A stretch of 56,435 bases of DNA from the IMG/VR virus record IMGVR_UViG_3300020200_000036, positions 1 through 56,435 of that record; one strand, given 5' to 3'. The position numbers were made by a program, and so were the translations under genes. The notes beneath the pieces were generated by a model. The model saw nothing but the letters and a program-made list of their open reading frames with translations, did not search any database and was not told the DNA's origin. Positions 15,346 through 54,015 of the stretch are shown in pieces (position 1 is the first letter of the stretch; each line of letters begins with the position of its first letter). Origin of the DNA: a virus.

Positions 15346-18081
15346 CTAGTACCCAGTAATTAATGATATAGTATTATTGTTGTGAAAAATAGTAGGGCAA
15401 TTATAGCCGGGTTGGATTCCAATAATTTCAAACTTTACTGATGGATATAGAGCTATTCCATAGTTGGTGTTTCCAAATGGGTCAGGACCTAGAGAGGTAT
15501 CCCCCACAAAAACTCCGGCTCCACCGCCAGGGATCGTTGTCGATCCGGCTGGCTTGTGTCCTGCGGTACGAATATCCTCAGATATCTCCCTAGTCATAAC
15601 TAGGAATCCATTGTAGTTCTTCGCCCATCTTTCAGAAAGAGGATTTACTGTATTCCTATTCACACCTAAATGCCCCAATGGGAATGTAGCTCTATTATCA
15701 CTGAACGGTCTGCCTCCTATACGATTAGCTAAGGCCACGTTGCCGGCGGGTTCGGTCAACCCGCCGGGGTATGTGTACAGCGGGCCATTTGGCCCTCCAT
15801 GAAGTTCTTTTAATTTTATCGCCCATACACAAAAAATTGTAAATTCAATCAAGTTATTTCTTTTTTCTTTAGTTACAATTATATCTGACGGTCCATTCTT
15901 ACAAGTGCAATTATGATAAGATGCTCTTAAATGAAAATCACTTGCCCAAGGAGCCTGAAAAGGATCTATTACGAGTCTTTTCTTTACGAAACAAAACGTA
16001 AAATCATTGTGATAATTTCCTTCTCCTGCGTAGTTGCCGTGCCCGCCGTGGACCCACGGATAGTCGGCATGATTAACAGTAGAGCCGAACGGAGCTTCGT
16101 AAGTATTTTCAAAGTGTCCCTGGTGAGCCTGTACCATAGAATGGAGAGACTGACCGTTTTGAGAACCGGGTACTATATAATCATCTAACCAAATCTTAAA
16201 CAAATTATCAAACCAACTAGCCTTTGTTATTGGAGTGCCACCCCAATTGGAAAAAACGTCAAAATTAATTATATTTATCCAATCCATATGTGTACGAGGG
16301 GTATAGTTAATAGTGCCTTGGTTAGGGTTAAGAACAGTCTGATGAACATGAGATAAGGGGATCCAATTCGCTACGTCCCACCCTGGATCCAAATTTATCT
16401 CATTAGGGTAATTATATTTCTGCCTAACTATGTTAACAAGTTGGGCCCCGTGAGCACTACCTGCCAAGCCCGCGCCAATGATGTTGCCACCGAGGATTCT
16501 TCTTTCCACATCCATCAGAGCCCCTTCAACGCCGTAAAAAAGTCCTCCAAGTATATAACCAGTCTTAATGATTTTAGGATATTCGACAGGGAATGGTGGT
16601 ATAGTAGCGGCAACTTCGGTAAGTCTATCATTAATATCTTTAATCGGAAGATCAACATAAGCTTGAGTTGCAACTGGGTTAGCTAATGATATTTGTGGAT
16701 GAGCAGCGGCTATACCAGCCCTTTCATTGTATGCAAGCTCTGTTGTTCTAAAGAAAGGTCTTATGTCAATTAAATCATTAGAAGTAAGAATAGGGATATT
16801 ATTTTCATTTTGTGATGCTCCGGCTCTTACAACAACGTAGGCTAGGGGAAGTATTGACTGACCTAGCAAAGCCATGTGATTATTTTCTACATTATCCGCC
16901 AAAGTTGGAGCAAAATTTAATAAATCATCGGGAGATGGAAAAGATCCTTTTACGCCGCTAAATCCAAGATTTTGATTTAATGTGTCAGCATGAGATGCTA
17001 ACATCAAATTATTTCCATCCTCATCTTGCAGCGGAATTGTGTGTCCGTAATCTAGATGACTTAGGGATAGATCCCTTGAAGACCTTTTATTTAGACCAAG
17101 CCCCGCTCCCTTTACAATACCTAGCTGGGGGGTGTAAATTTTTGTAGGAGTATTTCCACCGTTTACAAATTTTGCAATAGTTGCAGCAGAAGTATCTATT
17201 GGTTTTGAATATACAAACAGTAAATCTATTCTTTGATTAGCTTCTTGAATAAGTGTTTTTTGTCCGCTTGAGTCAAAATAGAAATGATCCTGAGGATTAA
17301 ACGGCGGTATTTCTATGGAAAGCTCTTCAGGAATATCTACTATAGAAGTTCTAGCGACCCCTCTCCATTTTTTAATAAACCCGCTCTCTAGTACAGGAAG
17401 ACTAGCGTACCCTAACTCATTACCAGAAGCTGATTGCCCAGGTAAGAAATCAAACTTTAAACCTCTTACAGTTGATGCATCATAGAGTGGACTGAACACT
17501 CCATTTCGGATGTACAGCCTTCCTTTGTACATTGGATAGGGCCATTTCCCACCAAAGTCTAATGCTTCAAGTCTAGCTTCATTGTACCCAGCCCCACCGG
17601 ACAACATCAATGGTGATACTGTATGATGCCATGCTGAGGCTTTGGTAAAAATTCTTTCAACTAAACCGTTTAGTGCCAGAGAGTCTTCTGCTACAACCCC
17701 TTTAACCTTATCAATTATTTGTTGAATATAAGCGTGATTATTTGTCTTTTCAGTGACAATATCTTCATAGGTTGGAATTACATTAAGTAATTGCATTGGT
17801 TGAAGATTAAATACGTCATTTATTCTTGCGGTGTATCTCCCTGGCCTTACATAGACTACGTTATCTGATCCGTCAATGTAAGGTTGAAGTTCTGTAAGTT
17901 TATCTCTACCTACTCCATGTTGGCTAGGATTCATCTTTTCTAATTGATCCTTGAGCCAAAGATCGTTTTGTTGGAGTTGTTTAAGAGGTATATTATCAAC
18001 TTCATAGTAAATTGGATCGTTGGCTTTGAAGTATCTGATTGGATCAGTGAATCTGTAAGAACTTTGAGCGAATATTACCAT
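15346..18081 (-). CDS. Large virion structural protein (baseplate/fibre-associated)
   Basis: A 911-residue protein. The N-terminus, containing SSYRFTDPIRYFKANDPIYYEVDNIPLKQL and then WLKDQLE (key motif FKANDPIYYEVDNIPLKQL), is of a type I recall from structural proteins of marine T4-like phages, where it seems to be an attachment module. The rest is beta- and loop-rich with many Gly, Asn, His and aromatic residues, for example repeated HxDYxW/HGGHGNY patterns around 650-690. No enzyme motif is evident. It starts at the base where the beta-helix gene ends (TAATG-style overlap), indicating coupled expression with the fibre. It is a probable adaptor or fibre carrying carbohydrate-binding surfaces; function is inferred from context. 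Confidence 0.72.
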   Translation of the reverse strand: MVIFAQSSYRFTDPIRYFKANDPIYYEVDNIPLKQLQQNDLWLKDQLEKMNPSQHGVGRDKLTELQPYIDGSDNVVYVRPGRYTARINDVFNLQPMQLLNVIPTYEDIVTEKTNNHAYIQQIIDKVKGVVAEDSLALNGLVERIFTKASAWHHTVSPLMLSGGAGYNEARLEALDFGGKWPYPMYKGRLYIRNGVFSPLYDASTVRGLKFDFLPGQSASGNELGYASLPVLESGFIKKWRGVARTSIVDIPEELSIEIPPFNPQDHFYFDSSGQKTLIQEANQRIDLLFVYSKPIDTSAATIAKFVNGGNTPTKIYTPQLGIVKGAGLGLNKRSSRDLSLSHLDYGHTIPLQDEDGNNLMLASHADTLNQNLGFSGVKGSFPSPDDLLNFAPTLADNVENNHMALLGQSILPLAYVVVRAGASQNENNIPILTSNDLIDIRPFFRTTELAYNERAGIAAAHPQISLANPVATQAYVDLPIKDINDRLTEVAATIPPFPVEYPKIIKTGYILGGLFYGVEGALMDVERRILGGNIIGAGLAGSAHGAQLVNIVRQKYNYPNEINLDPGWDVANWIPLSHVHQTVLNPNQGTINYTPRTHMDWINIINFDVFSNWGGTPITKASWFDNLFKIWLDDYIVPGSQNGQSLHSMVQAHQGHFENTYEAPFGSTVNHADYPWVHGGHGNYAGEGNYHNDFTFCFVKKRLVIDPFQAPWASDFHLRASYHNCTCKNGPSDIIVTKEKRNNLIEFTIFCVWAIKLKELHGGPNGPLYTYPGGLTEPAGNVALANRIGGRPFSDNRATFPLGHLGVNRNTVNPLSERWAKNYNGFLVMTREISEDIRTAGHKPAGSTTIPGGGAGVFVGDTSLGPDPFGNTNYGIALYPSVKFEIIGIQPGYNCPTIFHNNNTISLITGY
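15743..15767. other. Perfect GC-rich inverted repeat inside a structural gene
   Basis: CCGGCGGGTT (15743-15752) and AACCCGCCGG (15758-15767) form a perfect 10-bp stem with a 5-base loop in an otherwise AT-rich gene. It is in frame in the 911-residue protein (Pro-Gly-Gly/Pro-Ala-Gly codons). There is no T-run beside it, so it is not a standard terminator. Confidence 0.8.
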
Positions 18082-21000
18082 TAGTTGTCCCTTTGTAAAT
18101 CAAAAAAGTTTGGTGATCTTAATCCCTTAGTATTGTAAGAACTTCCGAATTCAACATCGTCGTATGGGTAGTAGATTGAAACCAACTTTGCATTTCCAGA
18201 TTTTCCTGTAGAACAATGTTTAGCATTAGCAAACAAATCTGAAGAAGACTCATCTAAGAATACTCTGATAAATCCTCCGTTGTCCATTATACTAGACCCA
18301 TAATAGTACCCAGATGGGACTATATTATTAGATGAGTTCCTTTGCAAAGCTATTTTATAAATAGAACTCAAATTATCTGCGCTACAGATTAATGAAGAAG
18401 ATGGTTGATACCCCTGAGAATAGATTTGTGGTATTATATCATTCGTTGTTGAGCTTAAGTCTGTAAAAGCGTTAGCAACAGGATTAACAGAGAAATACAA
18501 CCTGAACACACCATAATTTAAGGCAGAAGAAGTTCCAAAAGGATTTGCAGACGCTGGGGCTGCTCCAAAGTAATCAAGGATTGAGACGGAGCTTGTGTCT
18601 TGGGTTCCCGAAGGAAGACCTGACGCTATGCCGCCCGTACTAGATCTCCATACCCCCGAAGGCCCAACATAGCCTGCTGCTCTTGGATAAAGACCCTGTA
18701 CAGAGGTGTAGGAAGATTTTAATTGAGACGTATCTGCTATATTCCAAATAAATGTTTTGAAACAAAGTCCACCATTAGCAGCAGGAATGGAATTATCATA
18801 ATAAGGTGCCGAGGAATTCCACCACCCAGCAGGGAAGTTAACATTGTTAATGTTAACCAAGCTATTGTTCAAAGCTCTTACACAATATCCCCCGTTCGTT
18901 ACTGAACTAAAATCGTTTATAGGAGTGTTATAGTCTTTTAAGTAATAAAGATTTTTAGAGTTTTCGGCCAAATCGAAAGCCTTAGCATTTGAAATATATG
19001 GATTATCCGCCCCTGGAAATCCTACAGCATAGGAACCTATTGGATTTGGATAGAATTGTAATGATCCAGCACTTACATATGCCTCAAGGTACTCCATGTT
19101 TTGACTATAGTCTATCCCACTACCCACTCTATTACTGTAAAAATTCCCGGTTGTATCCCATGATGTTTTAAATGATCCTAAATCTTTGGCATTAAAAACT
19201 GAATTATTGTCTAAGACTACGCAAGACCTTGTAGCGTGAAGCTCGACAGAAGTATGATTTAAGTTGTTACTCAAATCAATTGAGGATATATCCAAAATAT
19301 CTATACCATTTAAGCTATATGGATTTATATTAATAGTTGAATTATTCTCAGCTAATAAATCAATTCCATATTTAGCTATAACAGTGGGACCATTAAATTC
19401 TATTTTTGAGTTATCACCAGCGTAGCAACCAGCGATATTCTTTTGGTTAATTCTTTCTGAGGGGCCTATTATGCGAGTTGCGGCAAGCCTTGTTCCAATT
19501 AACTTTGCAAAAGAATTATTAGTTACTGATAATTCAGACCCTTTTGCTATAGGGGCATCCCCAACATGGTCCGCATTTCTCTTAAGGAGAGGTCCAATTA
19601 ACACAACATTTGAATTATTAGTTAGTTCAATAGCTGGAATTGGTGCCATATTATTATTGTGGATAAGTTTTGCTCCTATAGTTTGACAAAATTCTATTTG
19701 ATCATAGATAGAATCCATATTAGAAGTAATCACAGGATTCATTTTTGAATTAGAAAGAACTATGTGCTGACCATTACCGCTAAAGTATAGTGGTCCGTTA
19801 TTTTCAGGAGCATAATTTCCATAGGGGGATAAATTCTTTCCATAAATAATATTAGAATTATTTGCTTCTATGGCAGTTTTTTGATTATACATCATAGAAA
19901 GCTTATCTATTTCAAATACAGATGAGTCTAGTTTGATTCCATTAAGGTTTTCAAATACACTTAGTCTACCGTCGAAAGATAACTTAGAGTTGGTAAGCTT
20001 AATTCCGCACCCCACGTTACCCTGAATATTAATATTTATGGTGTGTCTGTAATGATTAGAAGAACTAGCCATAAATGTATCGCCACCTTGGAGTATTGAA
20101 TTATTTAAAACAATACCATTTGAATTTTTGCTAAAATCAAAAATACAATTAACATTTACATAAGGATCAATATCTGTGAAATAATCTTCGGCTGCCTCGA
20201 TAATATAATTTTTGTAAAGAGGGCTTAGGAATTCTCTCGTAGAATTTATAGTAATTGTACTATTGTTTGATAAAATTCCGGCAGCCTTATCATAATTTGT
20301 ATAGCCTAAAGTTGAGTCGTATGAATCATAAAATATTTTTGAACTCCATAATCCAGTTAGTCTATTACCAGTTGAATCAAAATCGTATATTCTATTAGCT
20401 ACACAACCTCTTAACAAATTTACATTTGAGTCATTAAATAAGAATCCGGCCTTCCTATGCCTTACAGATACAATATTTTCTAAATTAATATTATTAGAAT
20501 TAGCAACTTCAACTCCATAATAATTTGTAGATCTATTGTAGCCACTACCATCTACAAAGAAGTTTCTAATGTATATTGGACCTTCACAGTTATTAACAAT
20601 AATTTTATCTAGCCTATTTCCGAATACTAAGCTGTTAACCCCATGAGTATTGTTACTTGTATGATCATTTAAGTATAGGTGATGAGAGTTACCGTTTATT
20701 AAATCTATTGTGCTGGAATCATAAGTAAATATACCATCTGCTATTTCCGCATTTAAATCATATGGGGTAAATTGAAATCTATCTGGTAAAGCTGGGCTGG
20801 CTGCTGCAAATGCAATATTTTTGCTTGCTATACTTAAAGTTGGTCTAGTGTATTTTGAATTATACCCATTTGAAATTAACGGCTGAGAAATAAATGCATT
20901 AAAATTTGAAGTTAGTCGGGTATCATTAGTCGCACTACATATTGTTGTAGAAATACTTAAACACGAAGCAGCTAGCAGACTTTTCTGTGCTCCGACATTA

Positions 21001-21557
21001 TAGTCTTGAAATGTACCTGTTTCAACACCTATAGCTGAGTAATATGAATATTTATTATTTAGAACTGAACTAGCATAATTCATTCCTAATTCATCATGAA
21101 CACTTCCATAATTATAGGACGCAGACACCACTGCAAGTGATTTTGAAAAAGTTCTGTTAATTATTTCTAATGAACCCCTAGGTCCAAATCTGAAGTTATT
21201 TAAAACTAGATCACCTAAAGCACCGAAGTTTCCAACTTCAATAATGATTGGAAAATTAATAGTCTCTGGAAGAGCGTCGATTGCGGCACTGAGACTTCTG
21301 AAGATATTCTTGTTGCAGCTTATGGCACTGTCTGGGGCATCGGCTGAGACCGCGAGAACTACTCCAGGGATGCTTGATGTTGGATACCCAATCTTCTCCC
21401 ACAAATAGAAAGTTCTCTCCTCAAGATCGTAAACAGGCATATTATCCTGTTCCCAATTGTAGAATGCACTTGAATCAAACTTTGTAACCTTGTCGGTCCA
21501 GCAGTGAAAAAGCTTTACAGTGCTACTGGTTGTATAAATATCTTCTTTAATAAACAT
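18081..21557 (-). CDS. Right-handed beta-helix tail fibre/tailspike-like protein
   Basis: An 1158-residue protein with the repeat texture of a parallel beta-helix: many short hydrophobic strands separated by Asn/Ser turns (for example NNSTITINS, LTNSKLSFDG, LDSSVFEIDKL, NSNIIYGKN, NNSVFNAKDLG) across residues 270-850. The region just after the N-terminus (about 60-110) has ISCNKNIFRSLSAAIDALP and IIIEVGNFG, the usual lead-in where a pectate-lyase-like helix begins. A C-terminal beta-rich domain (about 900-1158) may be the trimerisation or receptor-binding end. No catalytic residues can be assigned with certainty. It lies between two small tail genes and large structural proteins; host-surface recognition or depolymerisation is likely. 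Confidence 0.75.
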   Translation of the reverse strand: MFIKEDIYTTSSTVKLFHCWTDKVTKFDSSAFYNWEQDNMPVYDLEERTFYLWEKIGYPTSSIPGVVLAVSADAPDSAISCNKNIFRSLSAAIDALPETINFPIIIEVGNFGALGDLVLNNFRFGPRGSLEIINRTFSKSLAVVSASYNYGSVHDELGMNYASSVLNNKYSYYSAIGVETGTFQDYNVGAQKSLLAASCLSISTTICSATNDTRLTSNFNAFISQPLISNGYNSKYTRPTLSIASKNIAFAAASPALPDRFQFTPYDLNAEIADGIFTYDSSTIDLINGNSHHLYLNDHTSNNTHGVNSLVFGNRLDKIIVNNCEGPIYIRNFFVDGSGYNRSTNYYGVEVANSNNINLENIVSVRHRKAGFLFNDSNVNLLRGCVANRIYDFDSTGNRLTGLWSSKIFYDSYDSTLGYTNYDKAAGILSNNSTITINSTREFLSPLYKNYIIEAAEDYFTDIDPYVNVNCIFDFSKNSNGIVLNNSILQGGDTFMASSSNHYRHTININIQGNVGCGIKLTNSKLSFDGRLSVFENLNGIKLDSSVFEIDKLSMMYNQKTAIEANNSNIIYGKNLSPYGNYAPENNGPLYFSGNGQHIVLSNSKMNPVITSNMDSIYDQIEFCQTIGAKLIHNNNMAPIPAIELTNNSNVVLIGPLLKRNADHVGDAPIAKGSELSVTNNSFAKLIGTRLAATRIIGPSERINQKNIAGCYAGDNSKIEFNGPTVIAKYGIDLLAENNSTININPYSLNGIDILDISSIDLSNNLNHTSVELHATRSCVVLDNNSVFNAKDLGSFKTSWDTTGNFYSNRVGSGIDYSQNMEYLEAYVSAGSLQFYPNPIGSYAVGFPGADNPYISNAKAFDLAENSKNLYYLKDYNTPINDFSSVTNGGYCVRALNNSLVNINNVNFPAGWWNSSAPYYDNSIPAANGGLCFKTFIWNIADTSQLKSSYTSVQGLYPRAAGYVGPSGVWRSSTGGIASGLPSGTQDTSSVSILDYFGAAPASANPFGTSSALNYGVFRLYFSVNPVANAFTDLSSTTNDIIPQIYSQGYQPSSSLICSADNLSSIYKIALQRNSSNNIVPSGYYYGSSIMDNGGFIRVFLDESSSDLFANAKHCSTGKSGNAKLVSIYYPYDDVEFGSSYNTKGLRSPNFFDLQRDN

Positions 21558-21558
21558 T

Positions 21559-22176
21559 TTAGAAAGTTAAACTCCATCTAAAAACAAGTGCAAAATCGTC
21601 AGTTTTTCTAACATTATCAAATGATCTGTAGGCTACTAAAATCGGAGCCGTAGGACTTGATTTTTTTATATTTTTTATGAACAAACCGATCTCATTTAGG
21701 TAGGCTATAGAGGATCCTCTACTTAAATTATTACAAGACTCTTGATCTATAAATATAGTAAATCTAACTGTATTATCATCAATTCTAGTAATTTGATGTT
21801 GTGGAATCAAACCATACCATTTGTATGTGGATACAATAGAATTATTAATTAATTGATAAGCAGATTCTGTAAGTATGTCCCCAGCCCCCTCTGTTCCAAT
21901 ATATTCAGATAGACTAGATAGTGGAGATGACAAACTATTTGTTTGATATACCTCGTTATCCGCACCACCAGATACCCCGACTTGAAATCTATCTATTTGA
22001 TAATCTAATACAGAGTCAGATCCAGACAATGAGAATAGATGTGCCAGTGACATCCCCATGCCTGAAACAATTACGTTATGATCATCAAAAACAACTTCTT
22101 CAGAGCCATTTGAAAATAGCTTTGATATTTTTAAATGACCTTTTATCTCAAGTTCATCAATTATGTTCTTTATCAT
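21559..22176 (-). CDS. Conserved tail protein, short beta-sandwich type
   Basis: A 205-residue protein. The reading frame is open to 22194, but the ATG at 22176 overlaps the upstream stop as ATGA and gives MIKNIIDELEIKGHL, so I take that start. The N-terminal region LKISKLFSNGSEEVVFDDHNVIVSGMG, then LAHLFSLSGS and YQIDRFQVGVSGG (key motif FDDHNVIVSGMG) is a signature I associate with tail proteins of marine T4-like phages. A later VRFTIFIDQESCNN segment and the end LVFRWSLTF look like strands of a trimeric beta-sandwich, similar to base or collar domains of short fibres. It probably links the wedge and the beta-helix fibre. Function by context only. Confidence 0.7.
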   Translation of the reverse strand: MIKNIIDELEIKGHLKISKLFSNGSEEVVFDDHNVIVSGMGMSLAHLFSLSGSDSVLDYQIDRFQVGVSGGADNEVYQTNSLSSPLSSLSEYIGTEGAGDILTESAYQLINNSIVSTYKWYGLIPQHQITRIDDNTVRFTIFIDQESCNNLSRGSSIAYLNEIGLFIKNIKKSSPTAPILVAYRSFDNVRKTDDFALVFRWSLTF

Positions 22177-23153
22177 ACAAAATACAGTTCCCAATTTAAA
22201 GTAAGCGCAGGACCCTGATATGGGTAGTCATGTGTAAAATTAAACCCTGAAGATACTCCAAAATCATTAACAGTTAATAAATTTTTGTTAAAAGTCTTTT
22301 TAGCAAAAAGTTTATATTTTCTTATATTATTTAGATAGTTAAATGAATAAGGAGGGGTTTTACCTTCACTTAATAATGTTTTTAAATCTAAGTACCAAAG
22401 CCCTATGTGGTAAAGCCCACCAAATAAACTTAAAGATCCGGCATCCCCTTGAGCTATGTATATTTTATAGGTAACTTTATTTGGGAAAGTTCCGGCCTCA
22501 ATTAATCTAACTGCCCCCTTAGTATTATCGTTAGTTAAAGTTGCGTGATAAGTTGCATCTCCACTAGCAAAAGTTAAGAATCCAGAAGAGTCCATTAACT
22601 TATATTCATTAAAGTTGCTATACAAAGTTCCCGAATAAATTACGCTGGTAGATGGGCTTAGTTCTGAGGACACTGCCCAGTACTTAAATCCGTGACCTGA
22701 CGGAGCAAAACAACCTATCAAGTGAGCGTGAGAGCTTAAATTTATAGAAACCGCAGAATTTAAACAATGTCCTATATCAACAACCCCAGACGAATAATTA
22801 GGTAAAGTAGATTTAGACTCTAGCCTTGTATTTAACGGAGAGGGTGATTCTGGTAGAATTCTATAAATATGTTCTAATGAGATTTCCGTAGCCGATGTGT
22901 GGTAGCTTGATGCTGTTAGTGGTTGATAAGACACAACCTTTATTGCAGTGTTAGACGGGATAACTGATTGTGCTGATGGGTTTAAAATCTTATGAGCATG
23001 AAATTTAAAGCCATCGGCGTCTTTCCCAAAAGAAACAGCTTGAATGGTATAATTAGATGCATCAAGAATAGCTGACGCAGAGGATATTGAAGCCAAGCTT
23101 CTCTCTGCGGTAAGCACATCGACAATTAGTTTTCCTGCTCCATCTACTAGCAT
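22173..23153 (-). CDS. Tail structural protein of unknown family
   Basis: A 326-residue beta-rich protein. It starts one base after the stop of the giant wedge gene and ends with ATGA overlap onto the next gene, so it is translated as part of one operon. The N-terminal MLVDGAGKLIVDVLTAERSLASIS and NYTIQAVSFGKDADGFKFHAH (key AVSFGKDADGF) and the C-terminal LTLNWELYFV are visible landmarks. The C-terminal ending resembles that of the next protein (LVFRWSLTF), suggesting similar closing strands. Most likely a baseplate-periphery or fibre-connector component; no enzyme motif. Confidence 0.68.
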   Translation of the reverse strand: MLVDGAGKLIVDVLTAERSLASISSASAILDASNYTIQAVSFGKDADGFKFHAHKILNPSAQSVIPSNTAIKVVSYQPLTASSYHTSATEISLEHIYRILPESPSPLNTRLESKSTLPNYSSGVVDIGHCLNSAVSINLSSHAHLIGCFAPSGHGFKYWAVSSELSPSTSVIYSGTLYSNFNEYKLMDSSGFLTFASGDATYHATLTNDNTKGAVRLIEAGTFPNKVTYKIYIAQGDAGSLSLFGGLYHIGLWYLDLKTLLSEGKTPPYSFNYLNNIRKYKLFAKKTFNKNLLTVNDFGVSSGFNFTHDYPYQGPALTLNWELYFV

Positions 23154-23154
23154 T

Positions 23155-26100
23155 TTAATTATTGTAAGTTAAATTAGTTATACCGCCGGTTGTTCCTGTC
23201 ACAGAATAAGTATTCCAGAATGGAGATTCCACATAGTTTATTCTACTACCACCACTCGTTTCATAAACTCCACTTGTATATGGAGCAGACCTACTTGCAT
23301 ATCCAAACTCACTTGTATAAGCTCCTGCAATTTCGTTAAAATATCTTATTATAGATTGTAAATGATTCCTATTTATATCTACTCTATATTCTTTACAATA
23401 AATTTCTCCCATCGTAGAGCCATTTGGCGTACCAGTTACAAATATCTTAGACAAGTTATGTAAAGTTAAATCCATTAAATTTAAATCATAATATAATGTA
23501 AATTTGTTTTTATCTTTAGCATCGCTGAATATTTCAATGACATATCTTTGATTAAGTCTGTGGACATAATTTGATACATTTTCAAAATAATCAATTGGGA
23601 CATTAATATATTTATTTTTTGTATTAAAAGTTAATTCTAATTGATTGAAATCTGATTTGTCTAAAGATGCAATAGTATCGTTTTCTTTATTTTTATTTGC
23701 AATTAATATAAAGTTGTTACATCTTATAGAACTACTATTTAAGTCTCTAATAAGTTCTGGCATAGAAAGCTGATGGCAGTAGGTAGGTACGAGAGTCGAG
23801 TTTGTTACTAAACTAGCATCATGCTGTTTCCACTCTCCATTCTTCATAAAGGTCCATATCTTATTTCTTTCTGGTTTCGTATGTATCCAGAAGTTAATAG
23901 CTCCCCCGCCGAATACCTCTCCATTTAAAGTTGATATTAAAGCCTTGAGGTTAAGTTTGAATTCGTGATCAGGAGTCAAGAAGTTTGTAGGAACATCAAA
24001 TCCGTCATTTGAGTAGTGAGTGTACTTCCCTATATCAAAAATCATTCTACTGAATGAATTTATTGATTTTTGTTTTATAAGAACATTATCATGAATTAAT
24101 GGATTATACCTATGTCCAAATTTCTCAGAGCCCACTACATCTAGGACTGCAAAGCTGTTATCCCGGCTGCACCCAGACGGGTGGCAGAATTCCATATGGC
24201 TTATAATACCAGAATTTCTAAATTCTCTTTGGATTGTTGAATTGTCTTCTCGGTATATTGTTGCATCTTCTATCGTTGATGCAACAAAAGTTCCAGAAGA
24301 ATTTCCAGACACAGAAAACAATGGGCTAGTTGCATAAAATTCATAAATATTATCAAGGCTAGATGTAATGTACTGAGCATACTGATTTGCAAAATTACCT
24401 TTTACTAGCAGATCAGAATTGTACAACAAAGATCCAAATGTATGCCCAAAAATGGTTGGTCCATTCAGATTTACTAGCCCACCACCAACTCTGTGTCTAT
24501 TAAAGTTGTGGGTATAATTTTCATATAGTTTGTGGAAATCTCTACCAAACTTAAAGTTTATATAATTATCAAATGAGTTTGGAAAAGCCCCGCTATAAAT
24601 TGTTGCACTATTAGCGTAACTTTGGAGATTGTCTTTCCACATAGAAGTCTTAGCATATTCCCTACGCCTTCCTGCATAATAAGCTGAGGCTTGAACTACT
24701 TTAGCCTGCTCTTGAATGTAGTGTAATGTGGCTACAAACTTATCTAGTTGCCCTCGGTCTAAGAAGCTGTCAGTTCTAGCCAAAGTCCCAAGCCAAGCGT
24801 AGAAATATCTTTCTCCAATCTCATCTAAAGACTCATCATTAAAGTGAATATTTGATAATGTATAATTTTCTGCGGAGAAATTTCCACTTATACTGTACGA
24901 TGGAATATTAAGTATATTTGAGAAAAGTAATACCCCTGGTGGTGATATTGGGGAGGAATTAGATTCAAATAATGGTTCTTCTACAAATCCATTTATATCA
25001 TCAAAATTTAACAACTGCCCATATTGATCTGTATTTAAATTTTCTTGCCCTTGGCGTACGACAGATGTAGATGACCATGACCATGTTCCAAATGAACCCG
25101 ACAAGAAGTTTTCACCTCCAGCTATCCCAAATGTAGCAAACGTGGTCGCTAAAGCAGTCTTAGTTCCCCCTCCAAACTCAAGAAGTCCTGGGGATGGTTC
25201 CCAGTATCCATTAGGAAAGTAAAATCTATCTGGCTCTGATCCTTGTCCCATTTCATCCGCAATCTTGGATCTTAATATCTTAAAATTAATTGGAGATGGA
25301 AATTTTGCTTTTACTGTATCTAAGAAATAAGCTGTGGCAGCAGAAAATGCTATGGCACTTACATCATTTTCTTGCCCTGTTCCTGCCTCGGATTCTCCTT
25401 GAGCCCAAATCAAAGCAACATTTCTAATATTAGATGACCCACCTAATGAGTTTACAGCAGCGTCTACAACATTATTAAATCTCTTGTAGAGAGCATTGGT
25501 AAAAGTATTACTAGGGCACCAACTGTTAACAGCACTACTATTCACTACAAGAGAATTATCAGAAGCAAATTTTACAATATAAGTATTCTTGGCTAACTCA
25601 CTCTTTTGGAGTAGTTCACAGAATTTTACCTCAGGACCCCAGAAATCTGATCCGTAACTAAATGGGACACCAGTAAAAGAGTTATCATATAGTGGATTTA
25701 AAATTTGAGTGTTACCAAAAGGAATTACAGTATCTACGAAAGCAGACGCTTCGATATCCCAATAATTAATTCCACCCACAGAATCTCTCTGCCTTGTTCC
25801 TGCGCCGTTCATATTACTTTGGCCTGCCATAATAACTAAATTCTTTGTAGGCCCAACTTCTGACCATCCACGAGCAGGGACGGTATTACTTACATTATAT
25901 CCATAGTAAGAATTACTAGAATCAAGAGTATTACACTTTGAATATATTTCTGGTATATTATTGTAGTCAGGGATTGAAACAAAAGTCATTGAGCTTGGAA
26001 CTAGCCCTAATGGAGTTTTTGTAGTTGAAAAGTTATAATCATAAGATACTGGCATATTAAACCCAGTACGATCATAGAAACCTCCCTTAGGGAGTATAAA

Positions 26101-28245
26101 CTTTAAATCTCTTCTACGGTGTGATCTTCTTGGTAAGGTAGATGAAACTAAAGCATCAAATCTAATAAGGCTATCTGATAAACTGTCTACATTGGACCTA
26201 GAGAAGGTTGCGGTGGATGTTGGTGTGAGTCCTCTCTTATAAGTCTTCATAGCAATAGCGGATGTTCCAAACCCAGCTATTGATGCCCCGCTGGCATAAG
26301 TTATTGCAGCGTAATCCTGTTTAGCGACTCGGATGTATGGGCGAATAGCCTCCAGGTAGCCTTCAAAGTCCTCCGCAGACGATCTCGCAATAATCTCTGG
26401 TACTGCCTTTGCTGGAGAAAAGTCTTTAATTGTTTGTGATGTTATAGTAAGTATTTCAGGCGAATCTGCCTCTAATGATGATTTTCCAAAATCAAAGCTT
26501 GAAGTATCTATAACAATTTGAAAGTGAGATGATTTTCCATTCCACAAAGATAAATACTCAGTTTTCGTATCCGACAAATCTCTAATAATTGAATCCCAGT
26601 TGGGGGCATACTCTGCACTTGGAGTAAACATTAAAAAACTATTTTTAAGAGAATAGTCTTCATTAGTTCCCAAAGTGTATTTTAATATGTAATTTTTAAC
26701 TTTTTCAGCAAATGTAATTGGGACTCCAAAACAAATTAATTTATCTTCTATAAAAGAAACTAGCTCTTTAGTAATTTTTACAGTTCTATAGTATGGAATT
26801 TCTTCAAAAGGCGGAATTTTATTTATTTTATTTCTATATTTAAAAATAAAATCTGGATCGTCTACCCTAAATCTTCTTCCACCAAATAGAAAGTTGTCTG
26901 GAAATGCAGTGGCAAGGTCTGTTAATATGTTGTCAACGCACATTCTTATATTTTCATCAAAACTACTTAAGCTGTAGTTAGTGACTCCTAGACTTTGAGC
27001 TTTAGTCTGAGTCCAAGTAGAAAAATTTTGAAGGAATGTAGACTCTGTTGCTAAAGAATAGTGAATTAAGAATGGGATATAAGATTCCCACATTTCTGTA
27101 ATTAAAGAGCTAGCACTTAGTATATCTTGTCCGAAAATAGAATCTGCAATAAGACTTACACACTTCTTAGTTCCCACCGCTCTGTAAATATCAACAGCAT
27201 TCGCTATTTGGAGTCTCCACCGATCAGGTTCGGAGCCAAATAACTTCCACCCTATTAAGTTTGCTAGTAATGGCAAGTATTCATCTGGACATTCATTTAT
27301 GTCATACAATGCTTCAAGTCGATCAACTTGATTAGAGTAATCTGCAAAGGCAAACGACATTGCCTTTATTAATTTTATAAATGGCCCTTGTAGATATTTT
27401 TTAGTTATTAAAAACGAGTTTTGCAAATAATCGTCAATAGCATTTTTTACTCTAACATCTCCATCATCAATATAAAGTGGAGAGTATAGAACATCAACTA
27501 AAGTATTAAGTTTAGTAAGCTGCTGCGTTCCACTTGTAAACTGTGAACTTGTATTACTAGCTATAGGTAAAAAATCTTTAGGAATAACATTAATAGAACT
27601 CCACGACTGAGTGGTGTAGTTACGCCAAATATATTCAGTCAGTCCCCTAATACCATCATTGGTTTTTAATGTTTTTGCTGTGTAAGTATTGTTTGTTAAG
27701 ATATCCAATACATAAGACGATGGATTGTACTCTAAAGATTCACCTCTATTTAAAAAATAGAGCCAAGATAAATTCGTTATTAAATAATTATGTGTTTGTT
27801 CTTTTGTTGCGCCCTCTACAAATATCAATGTTGGATTATTTGTTCTTATTCCAGGTAGTAGAGTATTCTTTAAATAATCTCTGAATTCGTCACTAGAATT
27901 AAAATCTCTTAATGACTTGTTTAATGGTAATAGTATTTTTCTTTCAAAATCGTTAATGTCTATATCAGTAAGATTATTTTGTTTTACAAAGAATTGAGCT
28001 ATGCCCTCAGGAGTATTCATTCCACTATAAACTGTCCCAGTAACTCCACTAATAAAAAGTATGCTATTTATATTTCCAATTACATTTAAATGAGAATTTA
28101 TTAATTGATCTATGATGTCAATTTCATTATTTTTTAATGCATAGTCTTCTTCATAATACATTGACGGAATGACATACTTCATTGCGTCGCTGTAATTTGA
28201 CTTGTGGTACTGACGATTATCTATGAACTTAATTGGACTAGACAT
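23155..28245 (-). CDS. Giant gp7/gpI-like baseplate wedge protein with embedded SGNH esterase domain
   Basis: A 1696-residue protein directly after gp6, where T4 has wedge gp7 (about 1032). Start taken at the ATG 28245; a TTG at 28251 is the alternative. Residues 310-375 contain a P2-gpI-like tail-protein module (CPDEYLPLLANLIGW, then IYRAVGTKKCVSLIADSIFG). Residues 800-1145 form a SASA/DUF303-type SGNH hydrolase: block I LVIMAGQSNMNG (nucleophile Ser810), a GPEVKFCELL block, ALIWAQGESE (about 948-955), and block V NIHFNDESLDEIGERYF (His1134). Such enzymes remove acetyl groups from sialic acids or other sugars. The C-terminal 550 residues are beta-rich and unassigned. A surface-polysaccharide deacetylase in the baseplate is inferred. 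Confidence 0.8.
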   Translation of the reverse strand: MSSPIKFIDNRQYHKSNYSDAMKYVIPSMYYEEDYALKNNEIDIIDQLINSHLNVIGNINSILFISGVTGTVYSGMNTPEGIAQFFVKQNNLTDIDINDFERKILLPLNKSLRDFNSSDEFRDYLKNTLLPGIRTNNPTLIFVEGATKEQTHNYLITNLSWLYFLNRGESLEYNPSSYVLDILTNNTYTAKTLKTNDGIRGLTEYIWRNYTTQSWSSINVIPKDFLPIASNTSSQFTSGTQQLTKLNTLVDVLYSPLYIDDGDVRVKNAIDDYLQNSFLITKKYLQGPFIKLIKAMSFAFADYSNQVDRLEALYDINECPDEYLPLLANLIGWKLFGSEPDRWRLQIANAVDIYRAVGTKKCVSLIADSIFGQDILSASSLITEMWESYIPFLIHYSLATESTFLQNFSTWTQTKAQSLGVTNYSLSSFDENIRMCVDNILTDLATAFPDNFLFGGRRFRVDDPDFIFKYRNKINKIPPFEEIPYYRTVKITKELVSFIEDKLICFGVPITFAEKVKNYILKYTLGTNEDYSLKNSFLMFTPSAEYAPNWDSIIRDLSDTKTEYLSLWNGKSSHFQIVIDTSSFDFGKSSLEADSPEILTITSQTIKDFSPAKAVPEIIARSSAEDFEGYLEAIRPYIRVAKQDYAAITYASGASIAGFGTSAIAMKTYKRGLTPTSTATFSRSNVDSLSDSLIRFDALVSSTLPRRSHRRRDLKFILPKGGFYDRTGFNMPVSYDYNFSTTKTPLGLVPSSMTFVSIPDYNNIPEIYSKCNTLDSSNSYYGYNVSNTVPARGWSEVGPTKNLVIMAGQSNMNGAGTRQRDSVGGINYWDIEASAFVDTVIPFGNTQILNPLYDNSFTGVPFSYGSDFWGPEVKFCELLQKSELAKNTYIVKFASDNSLVVNSSAVNSWCPSNTFTNALYKRFNNVVDAAVNSLGGSSNIRNVALIWAQGESEAGTGQENDVSAIAFSAATAYFLDTVKAKFPSPINFKILRSKIADEMGQGSEPDRFYFPNGYWEPSPGLLEFGGGTKTALATTFATFGIAGGENFLSGSFGTWSWSSTSVVRQGQENLNTDQYGQLLNFDDINGFVEEPLFESNSSPISPPGVLLFSNILNIPSYSISGNFSAENYTLSNIHFNDESLDEIGERYFYAWLGTLARTDSFLDRGQLDKFVATLHYIQEQAKVVQASAYYAGRRREYAKTSMWKDNLQSYANSATIYSGAFPNSFDNYINFKFGRDFHKLYENYTHNFNRHRVGGGLVNLNGPTIFGHTFGSLLYNSDLLVKGNFANQYAQYITSSLDNIYEFYATSPLFSVSGNSSGTFVASTIEDATIYREDNSTIQREFRNSGIISHMEFCHPSGCSRDNSFAVLDVVGSEKFGHRYNPLIHDNVLIKQKSINSFSRMIFDIGKYTHYSNDGFDVPTNFLTPDHEFKLNLKALISTLNGEVFGGGAINFWIHTKPERNKIWTFMKNGEWKQHDASLVTNSTLVPTYCHQLSMPELIRDLNSSSIRCNNFILIANKNKENDTIASLDKSDFNQLELTFNTKNKYINVPIDYFENVSNYVHRLNQRYVIEIFSDAKDKNKFTLYYDLNLMDLTLHNLSKIFVTGTPNGSTMGEIYCKEYRVDINRNHLQSIIRYFNEIAGAYTSEFGYASRSAPYTSGVYETSGGSRINYVESPFWNTYSVTGTTGGITNLTYNN

Positions 28246-29842
28246 AAACAATATTTAATGTATAATTATTTAATTGAACTATCTCATTAAAGTTTACTTG
28301 AATAGTTTCTGAAACATTGTCTATGGTAGCGAATCTAACCTCTTCGACTTGGAATATTGAATACATCAAGTCCTGAGGATTAAATACTTTTCCAAAGTCA
28401 TTGTTGTCCATATTGAAAAATGCTTCGATAGTATTTCTAACTTTTTGTCTAATAGAGGTCTCATTGAACTGATACTTCTTATCCAATCTAAGAGTTATTT
28501 GAAGGTCTAAAGTTCTTATTAAACCATCTACAACCACCACCTCATCAGTAAGCATCTTTTTATCATCTATTGCTAAAAGGATTTGACGCTTATATTCTGG
28601 TGTAGCTTTTCTTAGCTGTAAATTATTAGCTTTTTCAAGAACATATAGATCAATTATATTAGCAGAAGAGTAAGCTCTTCTTGTGACCGCAGTGGCTTTG
28701 CCTATTGACCCATAGGAGCTAATGTAGCTGTTAACGAATGCTTTGTAATCGTTCAATGTTACTAAGCGATTTTGAGTTCTAAACATTAAAGGTCCGTACC
28801 GCTTGGCATTTTCTGCTGTTTCCGCATCGGACCCACCAGTTCCTATTGAAGTATTTTGTATAGTTGCTTGGTGTGTAGTAGTTGATTCTCCGTTAGTAAA
28901 AGTTAAAGAAACTGGGGCATTAAGTACTCCCTTTCCAATATTTCCTCTTGTACCGCCCCCAGTTCTGTAAAGTATAGTGTAGCTATCCCCAATAGCGGGG
29001 GTTTTACCTATATTACTGTCTCCAAAAACTACAGTACCCCCATAATTATCATTAGACAATAATTGGAATACTCGTTGGGATGGTCCTGATGCATAAAATA
29101 TATTATCAACTTGAACATACTCACCGCTGGTAGCGGATTCTCCATTTATTATAACTTGTAAGCTCCCTTCAACAATAGGAGATTGTGCAAGAGAAACATT
29201 TTTTAACGATTCTGTATCTGAGAATGTTCCACGTTCGATAACTAAAGATCCCTCTAATAAAACTAGACTGGAGAATGTTGTAACACTCCCTTCCTTTTCT
29301 GAGTTGTACACTACAATATCAGCGGTAGGAGTGGCTGTATCTATGTCCCCGTCTGCTGCGATCTTATACAGGGTGTACGTTAGTGGTAATCCATCTTCTG
29401 GGGAAGTTATAGTAACTGATCTATCCTTTGCAGCTATTGTTATGTAACTGTTAGGGGAATTTGTCCATGTAAAAGGGAGTGTCAGTTTGGAGTCCGAAGC
29501 GGCAGATATCGGACCCCTCATCCTAATACCAATAAGTTGCAATAAATTTTTAATACTTGACCTAGATCTAGCAGTTTTTAAAAAATTCTCATTAGCTAAA
29601 TAATCAGCTTTGTAGGACAAAACATGGCCCATGTAGGCTATAAGTTCTATGAGCATCATTCCAAAGTCTGATTCTGAGAAGTAATTGTAATCAAGCGGGT
29701 AGACCGCTTGAATATAACGAAGCAAAGAATCTCTAAGAGTTACGAAGTCAGTAGAAGCAAAATTTATATAGTTTCTCTTATCAACATCATCTGATGTTAA
29801 GAGTTTCATGAAGTCAGAATTTGCTGTGCCACGAAATTTCAT
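28238..29842 (-). CDS. gp6: Baseplate wedge protein (gp6-like, baseplate J family)
   Basis: A 534-residue gpJ/gp6-family protein (T4 gp6 about 660), which forms the inner iris of the baseplate that opens on contraction. Landmarks are the N-terminal FVTLRDSLLRYIQAVYPLDYNYFSESDFGMMLIELIAYMGHVLSY, given here by its key parts SDFGMMLIELIAYMGH, then YRTGGGTRGNIGKG, the MFRTQNRLVTLNDYKAFV block, and YKRQILLAIDDKKMLTDEVV. It shares one base with the gp25 stop (TAATG) and overlaps the gp7-like gene by 8 bases, the conserved 25-6-7 wedge cassette. Confidence 0.93.
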   Translation of the reverse strand: MKFRGTANSDFMKLLTSDDVDKRNYINFASTDFVTLRDSLLRYIQAVYPLDYNYFSESDFGMMLIELIAYMGHVLSYKADYLANENFLKTARSRSSIKNLLQLIGIRMRGPISAASDSKLTLPFTWTNSPNSYITIAAKDRSVTITSPEDGLPLTYTLYKIAADGDIDTATPTADIVVYNSEKEGSVTTFSSLVLLEGSLVIERGTFSDTESLKNVSLAQSPIVEGSLQVIINGESATSGEYVQVDNIFYASGPSQRVFQLLSNDNYGGTVVFGDSNIGKTPAIGDSYTILYRTGGGTRGNIGKGVLNAPVSLTFTNGESTTTHQATIQNTSIGTGGSDAETAENAKRYGPLMFRTQNRLVTLNDYKAFVNSYISSYGSIGKATAVTRRAYSSANIIDLYVLEKANNLQLRKATPEYKRQILLAIDDKKMLTDEVVVVDGLIRTLDLQITLRLDKKYQFNETSIRQKVRNTIEAFFNMDNNDFGKVFNPQDLMYSIFQVEEVRFATIDNVSETIQVNFNEIVQLNNYTLNIVYV

Positions 29843-30306
29843 TATTGTATATTTAGGGTTATGTCAAAAGCAATACTATCCACAACATTCAAAGTGCAAT
29901 AAATCTTTACAATTAAGACTTGTCCACTTTGATTACTTGAAGTTTGACCTGGGAATATTTGAATTTTATTTACAGATATTCCCCTAGCATACCTAGAAAA
30001 CGACTCTAAAATTTCTCTTTTTATTTGACTAAAAGTTGCTTGATCCATTGGCTCCATAAGAAATCTTCTTAGGTTGGTTCCATATGAGGGGAGCATTACT
30101 CGTTCTCCACGGGAAGTGGATAGAAGTTGTTTTAAATGTCCTTTTGCAAGCTTAACATCAGAACACCTAGTTAAAAATTTTCTAGAATCAATGCCTCCTA
30201 AAGGGAATGAAAATCCATAAGCTTTGTTCACATTCCTTTTTTCTAAAAGAACGGGTGGCTTAGGAACGGTAGATCCATAAATTTCTATTGTTTGGTTTAA
30301 TGCCAT
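29842..30306 (-). CDS. gp25: Baseplate wedge protein (gp25-like, GPW/gp25 family)
   Basis: A 154-residue gp25 homologue (T4 132). It has the family core: GGIDSRKFLTRCSDVKLAKGHLKQLLSTSRGERVMLPSYG, key part STSRGERVMLPSYGTNLRRFLMEP, then the helix ATFSQIKREILESFSRY and the closing strand VLIVKIYCTLN. gp25 starts sheath polymerisation at the baseplate and carries the conserved EPR-like motif region that contacts the sheath; here it appears as MEPMD. It sits 3 bases downstream of the ConA-like gene and is coupled to gp6. Confidence 0.93.
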   Translation of the reverse strand: MALNQTIEIYGSTVPKPPVLLEKRNVNKAYGFSFPLGGIDSRKFLTRCSDVKLAKGHLKQLLSTSRGERVMLPSYGTNLRRFLMEPMDQATFSQIKREILESFSRYARGISVNKIQIFPGQTSSNQSGQVLIVKIYCTLNVVDSIAFDITLNIQ

Positions 30307-46536: not shown

Positions 46537-47970
46537 TTACTTTACTCCCCAATAAATTTGTGATGGAAGATTACCTGAATCAACGTCAACTTGCAATACA
46601 TAAGATGTATCTGGTGTGCCAGTGGGGACTTCTAACCAATACGGGAGTCCGGTTTCATTAATAGGATCATTCAATAATACAGCAGGATTCGATGGTTGAC
46701 CTAAATTAACAATATTAGTTCCATTGTAATAAAATAGATCTCCTGTTGCTAAAGTGCTTGGTACAGCACAAAACTTTCTTCCAGCGGTCGTGAACGAGGT
46801 CGAAGCAGTTAAATCCACTCCACTAAAATAAATTAATACGTTAGATCCTGTTGATTGATTTGCTATTGCTTGAAGAGTTGCATCAAGATTTACATAAGTA
46901 GTTGCAGATATAGTTGTAGCACTTAAAGATGAGACTCTGTAATTAGAGTTTGCATAAGTTCCACCACCGGCTGATACAAAGTTATTTGAAAGATTTGGGG
47001 CAACATGGCCTGGGACCCAGTTTGATAGTGTATCTCCTTGCCAAACTCCTGAAGTACCATTCCAAGTAAGAGGGCTGCCGTCTTCCATAAATGAGAAATA
47101 AGGATCACCTGAAACAGTTGTAGATCTTTGTACGTTATCTAGGTCACCTAAATCTATATGGTCTAACTGAACTTGACCTGTACCATAACCAATTCTTGCA
47201 GATTTCCATTGTGAATTTGAACTATTCCAATATAATACATGGTTGTTCGATGGGTTTGGAACATTAACATCGAATAAATTATCTAAAGTAGTACCTGTGG
47301 TAAAAAAAGTACCAGTAGCCACAGAATTTAGAGGATCTCCTCCGTTCCCAACTAAGAAGTGGTTTGCTGTAAATGAAGTTTGTCCAGTTCCACCGTAAGT
47401 AACTGACAATGGAGTGTTTTCTATTGCTATAGTTCCAAGTTCCAGGTTATTTCTCGCTTGTGCCGTACCCGTAGCCCCAGTTCCACCGTTAGCAACTGAC
47501 AATGGAGTGTTTTCTATTGCTATAGTTCCAAGTCCCAGGTTAGTTCTCGCTTGTGCCATACCCGTAGCCCCAGTTCCACCGTTAATAACTGACAATGGAG
47601 TGTTTAGACTTAAGATATTAGCAGTTAAGGTAGTTCCATTAAATGTTAAGTTACTATCTGAAGAATATCTTGTTCCATTATAATATATTACTCCATTTGA
47701 ATTTGGTGTAGCGGTTGCGTTAGTCCCACCTTGCTCTATTGTAACAACATTTGCAGTTGTAAGTAAAACTCCAGTTCCTTGTAAAGAAGTTACATTTATT
47801 GATGTCGGATCTACCCCCCCACCAGGACTGTATGTATAACCATTAATGCTAGTTACATTTAAACTATCAATAGCCAAATAATTCGATTCAGCAAGTCTAT
47901 ATGGGATGCCAGTTTCACTGTCAACGTGAAGAATAATAGGTCGTGGATCGTCTTTTGGCCCAATAGTCAT
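46537..47970 (-). CDS. Tail fibre protein with GGTGATG repeats
   Basis: A 477-residue fibre. The N-terminus MTIGPKDDPRPIILHVDSETGIPYRLAES is likely the virion attachment end. Residues 120-200 contain repeated units of the form TPLSV-x-x-GGTGATG-x-AQAR-x-NLxLGTIAIEN, the collagen-like/GGTGA fibre repeats common in phage tail fibres. Two 31-residue copies are nearly identical at DNA level, and a third is partial. The C-terminal half is beta-rich with FYYNGTNIVNLGQPSNP-type strands and a terminal SQIYWGVK. The N- and C-termini share the phrase ETG(I/L)PYRL/PYWL, indicating a duplicated element. It is probably trimeric and a determinant of host range. Confidence 0.82.
   Translation of the reverse strand: MTIGPKDDPRPIILHVDSETGIPYRLAESNYLAIDSLNVTSINGYTYSPGGGVDPTSINVTSLQGTGVLLTTANVVTIEQGGTNATATPNSNGVIYYNGTRYSSDSNLTFNGTTLTANILSLNTPLSVINGGTGATGMAQARTNLGLGTIAIENTPLSVANGGTGATGTAQARNNLELGTIAIENTPLSVTYGGTGQTSFTANHFLVGNGGDPLNSVATGTFFTTGTTLDNLFDVNVPNPSNNHVLYWNSSNSQWKSARIGYGTGQVQLDHIDLGDLDNVQRSTTVSGDPYFSFMEDGSPLTWNGTSGVWQGDTLSNWVPGHVAPNLSNNFVSAGGGTYANSNYRVSSLSATTISATTYVNLDATLQAIANQSTGSNVLIYFSGVDLTASTSFTTAGRKFCAVPSTLATGDLFYYNGTNIVNLGQPSNPAVLLNDPINETGLPYWLEVPTGTPDTSYVLQVDVDSGNLPSQIYWGVK
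47401..47586 (-). repeat. Two 93-bp tandem repeats in tail fibre gene
   Basis: Copies at 47401-47493 and 47494-47586 differ at only a few positions; a third partial copy follows from 47587 and a diverged one precedes. Each encodes 31 residues of the GGTGATG-AQAR-NLxLGTIAIEN unit. Confidence 0.92.
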
Positions 47971-53337: not shown

Positions 53338-54015
53338 ATGATATATGCTATAATATGTAGCAGGACTACTAAACCAAGTAAAACACTACCTAAATTACTT
53401 AATTATTTGATAGAATCAGGTATTAAGTATCATGTTTCATACGATGCTAACTCAATGTTTGAGGGCTATCAGGCTGGGTTAGATATCCTTAGTCCAGGCA
53501 TGGAAGATATAGTAATAATGTGCCATGACGATATTGAGATATTGTCTGATCGCACCCTATTTAAGAAAATACTAGAAGAAAATCTTTCAAATAAAAATGT
53601 TGGATTTATAGGTCCAGCAGGAACTACATATCTCGGATCAAATGCTATCTGGTGGGACATTAATAGACGTACTACGGGGTTGCACAGCGGGTTTGTATTC
53701 CAAGGGGATAACTACAACACAATGACCCCTAATTATTTTGGCTCGTGTAGAAATGTTGTAGTATTAGATGGTTTGTTTCTAGCTGCTAGAAAAGAAACAC
53801 TTGACCAGATTAGTCTTAAAAAACCAAAAGAATTTCCAACAAATTGGGACTTCTACGATCTATACTATACCCTCTCAGCCTACGAAAAAGGGTTCACTAA
53901 CAAAACTGTACCAATTGTTATTTTACACAATTCAAATGGCTATATGAGAAATACTTGGGAAGAGAATCGTATAGCCTTCTGCAAAATGTTTAGACTCCCA
54001 GTAGGATGCAAATAA
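53338..54015 (+). CDS. GT-A type glycosyltransferase
   Basis: A 225-residue protein resembling small family-2-like glycosyltransferases found in T4-like environmental phages. MIYAIICSRTTKPSKTLPKLL forms the nucleotide-sugar Rossmann strand; IVIMCHDDIEIL (about 58-68) supplies a DxD-like metal motif; VGFIGPAGTTYLGS, VVVLDGLFLAARKETL and WDFYDLYYTLSAYEKGF complete the core, with HNSNGYMR near the end as a likely acceptor-loop His. It could modify phage DNA, virion proteins or host sugars. It starts the plus-strand accessory cluster and is followed by a membrane protein with TAATG overlap. TATTAT lies 8 bases before the ATG with no Shine-Dalgarno. Confidence 0.82.
   Translation: MIYAIICSRTTKPSKTLPKLLNYLIESGIKYHVSYDANSMFEGYQAGLDILSPGMEDIVIMCHDDIEILSDRTLFKKILEENLSNKNVGFIGPAGTTYLGSNAIWWDINRRTTGLHSGFVFQGDNYNTMTPNYFGSCRNVVVLDGLFLAARKETLDQISLKKPKEFPTNWDFYDLYYTLSAYEKGFTNKTVPIVILHNSNGYMRNTWEENRIAFCKMFRLPVGCK

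Follow-up and report, generated by a model that had tools for sequence, protein, structure and literature searches.

A SASA-family hydrolase domain as an exchangeable payload in a gpI-type baseplate wedge gene of uncultivated T4-like phages

A wedge gene of an uncultivated T4-like myovirus carries a SASA-family SGNH hydrolase domain at a clean insertion slot, which relatives hold empty or filled with unrelated folds. We read this gene, with a probability of about 0.65, as encoding a dock for exchangeable payloads at the periphery of the wedge, here fitted with an O-acetyl-glycan esterase of SASA-family SGNH type. Descriptions of enzyme exchange at the host interface usually concern tail spikes and fibres; an acceptor fixed in a wedge gene and taking unrelated folds in close relatives suggests that the baseplate, too, can serve as a module of host range.

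The wedge gene and its payload slot

The window, by which we mean the whole 56,435-nucleotide stretch analysed (IMG/VR record IMGVR_UViG_3300020200_000036), encodes a T4-type terminase, portal, major head protein, head protease, sheath and tube as well as a gp15-like sheath stabiliser, which together identify it as a fragment of a T4-like myovirus. On its minus strand, translation of an open reading frame (ORF) from an ATG at 28245 to a stop at 23155 gives a protein of 1696 residues. The first-pass annotation had placed this gene directly after gp25 and gp6, and its coordinates and both neighbours, supported by Pfam and PHROG matches, hold (Table 1); the order gp25, gp6, 1696-residue gene is the one by which gpI/Tail_P2_I wedge subunits are recognised. 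Searching 50,697 phage records by tblastn with the whole protein and with the SASA domain gave no match, and a PDB sequence search with the window protein gave no useful one. A scan of genome contigs with the scaffold alignment found no relative, so it provides no link to a host or prophage. Relatives were retrieved from IMG/VR, and the L-numbers used below are their contig labels.

Table 1. Positions of the wedge gene, its parts and its neighbours in the window.
Feature	Position	Strand	Evidence
gp25 wedge subunit	29842..30306	-	PF04965, E 3.6e-13
gp6, baseplate J-like wedge subunit, immediately upstream of the wedge gene	28238..29842	-	PHROG 219, E 5.8e-42
Whole gene: gpI-type wedge half, SASA payload, C-terminal half	23155..28245	-	ORF, translation
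Wedge half, residues 1-794	25864..28245	-	Complete separate ORF of 783-817 aa in split relatives
Tail_P2_I (gpI) core, residues 300-370	27136..27348	-	PF09684, 20.8 bits (cut-off 20.6)
Left slot edge, residues 785-793 (VSNTVPARG)	25867..25893	-	Alignments with insert-lacking relatives; split relatives end here
Payload: SASA-family SGNH hydrolase, residues 798-1160	24766..25854	-	PF03629, fold search, dS versus flanks
Predicted nucleophile Ser810 (GQSN)	25816..25818	-	Invariant in 10/10 SASA payloads covering it
GPE block, residues 870-872	25630..25638	-	WGPE in all members but one (WGVE)
QGES block, residues 949-952	25390..25401	-	QGE(S/T) invariant
Predicted catalytic His1134, no Asp at -3	24844..24846	-	Invariant in 8/8 members covering it
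Right slot edge, residues 1163-1167 (DRGQL)	24745..24759	-	Alignments with relatives
C-terminal half, residues 1161-1696; predicted jelly-roll, carbohydrate-binding-module-like	23158..24765	-	Foldseek, insert-lacking orthologue
Next gene, 326 aa; slot B empty here, filled in orthologues	22173..23153	-	Comparison of relatives
Slot B, about residues 60-73 of the next gene	22935..22976	-	SASA in L040, Kelch in L082/L085

The window protein scores marginally for Tail_P2_I, its orthologues clearly (29.9 bits in L009, 31.3 in L016, 32.2 in L043 and 34.6 in L161; several relatives at 29.7-34.6). A profile of the wedge half also picked up BRock gp126 (E 5e-6) and, in LR756511, the ORF immediately following gp6 (E 2e-8). 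Homology of T4 gp7 to the wedge-half scaffold was not detected by hmmsearch (E 0.5) or hhalign (probability 0.1). Of the gpI/gp7-like tail module described earlier at about residues 310-375, the gpI part thus stands and the gp7 part does not, and any 'gp7-like' label has gene order and the Tail_P2_I core as its basis. Judged from profiles and gene order, the wedge half is a gpI-type wedge subunit and not a member of gp7. It shares its place after gp25 and gp6 and its Tail_P2_I core with subunits of the T4 gp7, P2 gpI and Mu gp48 type; the C-terminal half and the payload have no T4 counterpart that we could detect. Candidate scaffold relatives tried (T4 gp7, gp8 and gp10, and the post-gp6 proteins of Syn19, HTVC008M and Cr30) were set aside, none matching clearly. 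In cyanophage Syn19 (L171 from 11022) the virion structural gene Syn19_088, spanning 19,452 bases, lies directly after gp6, the place taken by the slot gene in the group studied here.

Most relatives of the window protein are about 1300 residues long, with the equivalents of residues 794 and ~1160 joined by a short linker; insert-lacking orthologues pass from VSNTxxxRG to DRGQL over mostly ~5-25 residues. Both clean insertion boundaries and insert-free orthologues after gp6 were found among the IMG/VR relatives. The enzyme had been proposed to sit within a core wedge subunit: it does share the gene, but it lies at the junction of residues 1-794 and 1161-1696 and not inside the core.

In several relatives the gene is divided in two at exactly this junction: the first gene ends at the slot, and the second ORF consists of the payload followed by the C-terminal half. 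The many halves cut apart at the slot in this way would fit a fusion between a wedge protein and an independent tail fibre or adhesin, in which case the enzyme would be an ordinary tail-spike enzyme and its 'wedge' setting incidental. We consider such a fusion unlikely, if far from negligible, since the commonest state is fused and payload-free (77 contigs), which makes the C-terminal half part of the wedge gene even without an enzyme, and since no N-terminal anchor common to the second ORFs was seen.

In the model of the insert-lacking L082 protein, low-confidence residues 484-681 end at about the slot and are followed by a beta-rich C-terminal half. Foldseek with this model returned carbohydrate-binding modules (CBM4-2 family at E 2e-4 and probability 1.00, also CBM22, CBM16 and CBM61) and, more weakly, capsule depolymerase spikes; the CBM-like matches were assigned to the C-terminal half because it is beta-rich and the rest of the L082 model is helical. 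Because the jelly roll is a widespread fold, we put forward glycan binding by this half as a hypothesis drawn from the model. The wedge gene of L161 (L161:3367-9576, 2070 residues) has a further insert of ~650 residues within the C-terminal half (residues ~1343-1995), possibly a third slot; the next gene of L161 also holds an insert.

The SASA domain: family, active site and predicted fold

The proposed SASA/DUF303 hydrolase at about residues 800-1145 was borne out by a significant PF03629 match (residues 801-980; E 4.6e-7; 30.1 bits against a curated cut-off of 24.8), and the L002 domain scored 35.7 bits. The GQSN serine, the GPE and QGES blocks and the histidine all lie where they had been named, and the serine and the QGE block are present in 10/10 members. 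The first-pass annotation had also called the catalytic residues intact, which holds for Ser and His but not for the canonical acid: at the third position before the histidine (DxxH) the window protein has S1131, and Asp is absent there in every member. On these alignments a full catalytic triad is not evident. The active site of human SIAE is given as S127, T132 and H377 (PMC8319020), so the missing Asp does not of itself imply inactivity. Like SASA/DUF303 esterases (SIAE, NanS, CE6-like), the domain combines the PF03629 score with GQSN and QGE blocks, the histidine and SGNH topology. It differs from them in the Asp, in length (~360 residues, the profile having 226 positions, with additional sequence ahead of block V) and in being embedded in a virion protein.

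The absent acid would be expected if the domain were a non-catalytic, lectin-like receptor-binding module that has retained the SGNH fold, and the other payloads of both slots include beta-propellers and Kelch/RCC1 repeats, which are often binding folds. We nevertheless judge this improbable. Ser, QGE and His are kept even in members with identities as low as ~32-35%, a constraint not needed for binding alone; omega for the domain is 0.15-0.20, indicating that it is under purifying selection; and its fold matches are esterases.

A structure model of residues 1-1190, built with 36 sequences (mean pLDDT 65.8), agrees with the SGNH assignment. It places strands and helices in SGNH order at residues 801-1152 with a confident core; residues 1088-1132, preceding the catalytic His, have pLDDT <50. 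A PDB search with the SASA profile gave no useful match. By fold, the top PDB matches were mostly SGNH esterases (PVA esterase, SIAE, PbeAcXE and aryl esterases), the best at E 1.9e-3 with probability up to 1.00 and none reaching E 0.001. Against predicted viral structures the best match was at E 2e-5, and the best ones include the Vi06 tail fibre protein E1XUC0 and the ViI adhesion protein E1XTI0. The domain is thus predicted, from the model, to have an SGNH alpha/beta/alpha fold. A SASA relative (HMM 60 bits) also occurs in a 671-residue ORF at L076:7116-9128, on a contig where no wedge scaffold could be recognised, and may represent another setting of this enzyme family.

Exchange of payloads and a second slot

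By contig, the slot between the two halves (slot A) is empty in 77, holds SASA in 11 besides the window (L002-L005, L016, L069-L072, L074 and L075), holds a payload in a split gene in 14, and in one (L127) holds a different, GDSL-like SGNH domain in a fused gene, with motifs WLGDS and FFGTN. Of the payloads found in split genes, one of ~850 residues is propeller-like (L035, L038 and L047; part of the same in L034 and L039), with related modules in L079/L080, L104 and L112/L113. L078, L106 and L099 carry a beta-helix, L101 a helix plus SGNH, and L077 a helix-SGNH-helix arrangement. The beta-helix profile matched dextranase 1ogm (E 2.6e-4) and the GH28-type enzyme 3jur (E 0.024). PDB searches with the GDSL-like and propeller profiles found no match, so the former label rests on motifs and the latter on repeats seen by eye. 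Slot A of L168 is occupied by a propeller plus galactose-oxidase-like ORF (PF09118, E 1.9e-17). This ORF (L168:11448-15077, 1210 residues) lies between the wedge and C-terminal halves and has a propeller-like N-terminus, followed by a galactose-oxidase-like region with PF09118 at its end; it would be unusual for an oxidase to be linked to the virion. On these comparisons slot A takes several interchangeable payloads, SASA among them. The wedge gene of L075 (L075:5654-8237) runs over two overlapping frames, a break that may be a sequencing error; its neighbours nearly match those of L071.

Exchange is recorded at the nucleotide level. L004 and L002 are 99-100% identical over nearly all of ~9 kb and fall to 54-74% around the SASA domain; at the protein level the flanks are 99.5-100% identical and the SASA domain 61%, with dS of 0.006 and 0.05 for the flanks and 2.1 for the domain. 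The window and L004 give the reverse pattern (flank dS 1.34 and 0.91; SASA dS 0.29), and the two patterns together mean that the SASA domain has a history different from that of its gene. L078 and L079, with 89% identity in the wedge half and 97.7% in the C-terminal half, carry unrelated payloads. SASA is found in at least three separate scaffold lineages, and on the scaffold tree it requires three changes or more, each imposed by well-supported branches (L007 and L041 are labelled 'split' there only because their contigs end, which does not affect the SASA count).

Every sequence compared is an assembled contig and cultured phages gave no match, as would also be seen if the gene were a metagenomic assembly chimera. 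We reject this explanation, giving it hardly any weight: L003 comes from another data set and matches at ~100% identity up to and including residue 1159, SASA sits at the same point in 11 contigs from several data sets, and unrelated payloads fall in the same codon interval.

A second slot, slot B, lies in the next gene. It holds SASA in L040, Kelch propellers in L082, L083, L085 and L086 (PF24681, E 3e-35 in L082 and 5e-29 in L085, the two tested) and RCC1-like propellers in L143, L150 and L162 (PF13540, E 1e-25 in L143 and 2e-22 in L162; L150 assigned by eye). Inserts with no fold assigned occur in L012/L015, L125, L157/L158/L167 and L161. None of the ~75 contigs readable at both slots, window included, has both filled. 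Slot B is filled in 0/16 contigs with slot A filled and in 15/59 with it empty (one-sided Fisher p 0.017), a comparison that includes near-identical contigs, makes no correction for phylogeny and takes the A-empty total by subtraction; the never-both-filled pattern is suggestive only.

The broader reading, in which a widespread uncultivated T4-like group has a dedicated dock in the wedge protein, with another in the following protein as its alternative, one occupied at a time, and in which the swapped payloads are esterases, glycanases of beta-helix type, propellers and a module resembling galactose oxidase, is one we hold tentatively, at a little under even odds. If it is true, such a phage would refit its baseplate to new glycans on host surfaces and leave its fibres unchanged.

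Proposed role and relation to known systems

In the role that we favour, the wedge half would build the protein into the baseplate, the payload would project from the baseplate periphery via a flexible joint, and the C-terminal half would hold the payload or bind glycan. During adsorption the SASA payload would strip O-acetyl groups from capsule or O-antigen sugars of the host, with Ser810 attacking and His1134 acting as base, and deacetylation would expose or alter the receptor. T4 gp7 is present once per wedge; if the slot protein assembles like T4 gp7/gpI, about six copies would be displayed per baseplate. Surface exposure of the payload is likewise presumed, and exchange may track host glycan type. 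SGNH enzymes act on many acetyl esters, and sequence does not tell the substrate; the target might thus be something other than a host-surface barrier, such as a receptor on cell debris (in release or superinfection) or peptidoglycan O-acetyl groups. The virion-structural context and the replacement by other glycan-active folds favour surface glycans at the adsorption stage, and we think such other targets rather improbable.

The enzyme family is known and has known relatives on spikes; its location is unusual. The Vi06 and ViI proteins are acetyl-esterase adhesins for the O-acetylated Vi capsule. Pickard et al. 2010 (doi 10.1128/JB.00659-10; cited in PMC7029224), going by the title, reportedly describe an acetyl-esterase domain common to diverse phages. 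As in those adhesins, an SGNH-like acetyl-esterase domain, here a predicted one, is carried by a phage adsorption protein. ViI and Vi06 carry the enzyme on a tail spike or fibre, whereas here it lies in a gpI-type wedge gene between two scaffold halves, on the same polypeptide as the Tail_P2_I module rather than on a separate spike or fibre, and the slot also takes unrelated folds. Work on domain-shuffling receptor-binding proteins and host-recognition clusters has emphasised fibres, spikes and a downstream variable island (PMC10684548; PMC7029224). Such proteins and the slot genes have in common recent domain-level mosaicism in host-facing tail proteins; they differ in that the acceptor here is a fixed point in the wedge gene, with a second in the next gene. 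We did not find an enzyme in a wedge subunit described in the open-access literature, which is weak as evidence of absence. Modular tail enzymes are known; the wedge-gene location and the two-dock arrangement look new. The natural series of empty, esterase, glycanase and propeller forms lends itself to testing the glycan target of each payload, and the slot tells where to look when predicting host-surface enzymes of uncultivated phages.

Other genes of the window may also concern the host interface. Downstream of the slot genes, proteins of 1158 and 911 residues (18081-21557 and 15346-18081, minus strand), kept across relatives and without a Pfam match, are probably further baseplate or adhesin parts. 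A 477-residue protein at 46537-47970 (minus strand), also without a Pfam match, has tail-fibre-like repeats of the NGGTGATG type. Near the terminase, a glycosyltransferase-like protein is encoded at 53338-54015 on the plus strand (PF13712, E 3.3e-13).
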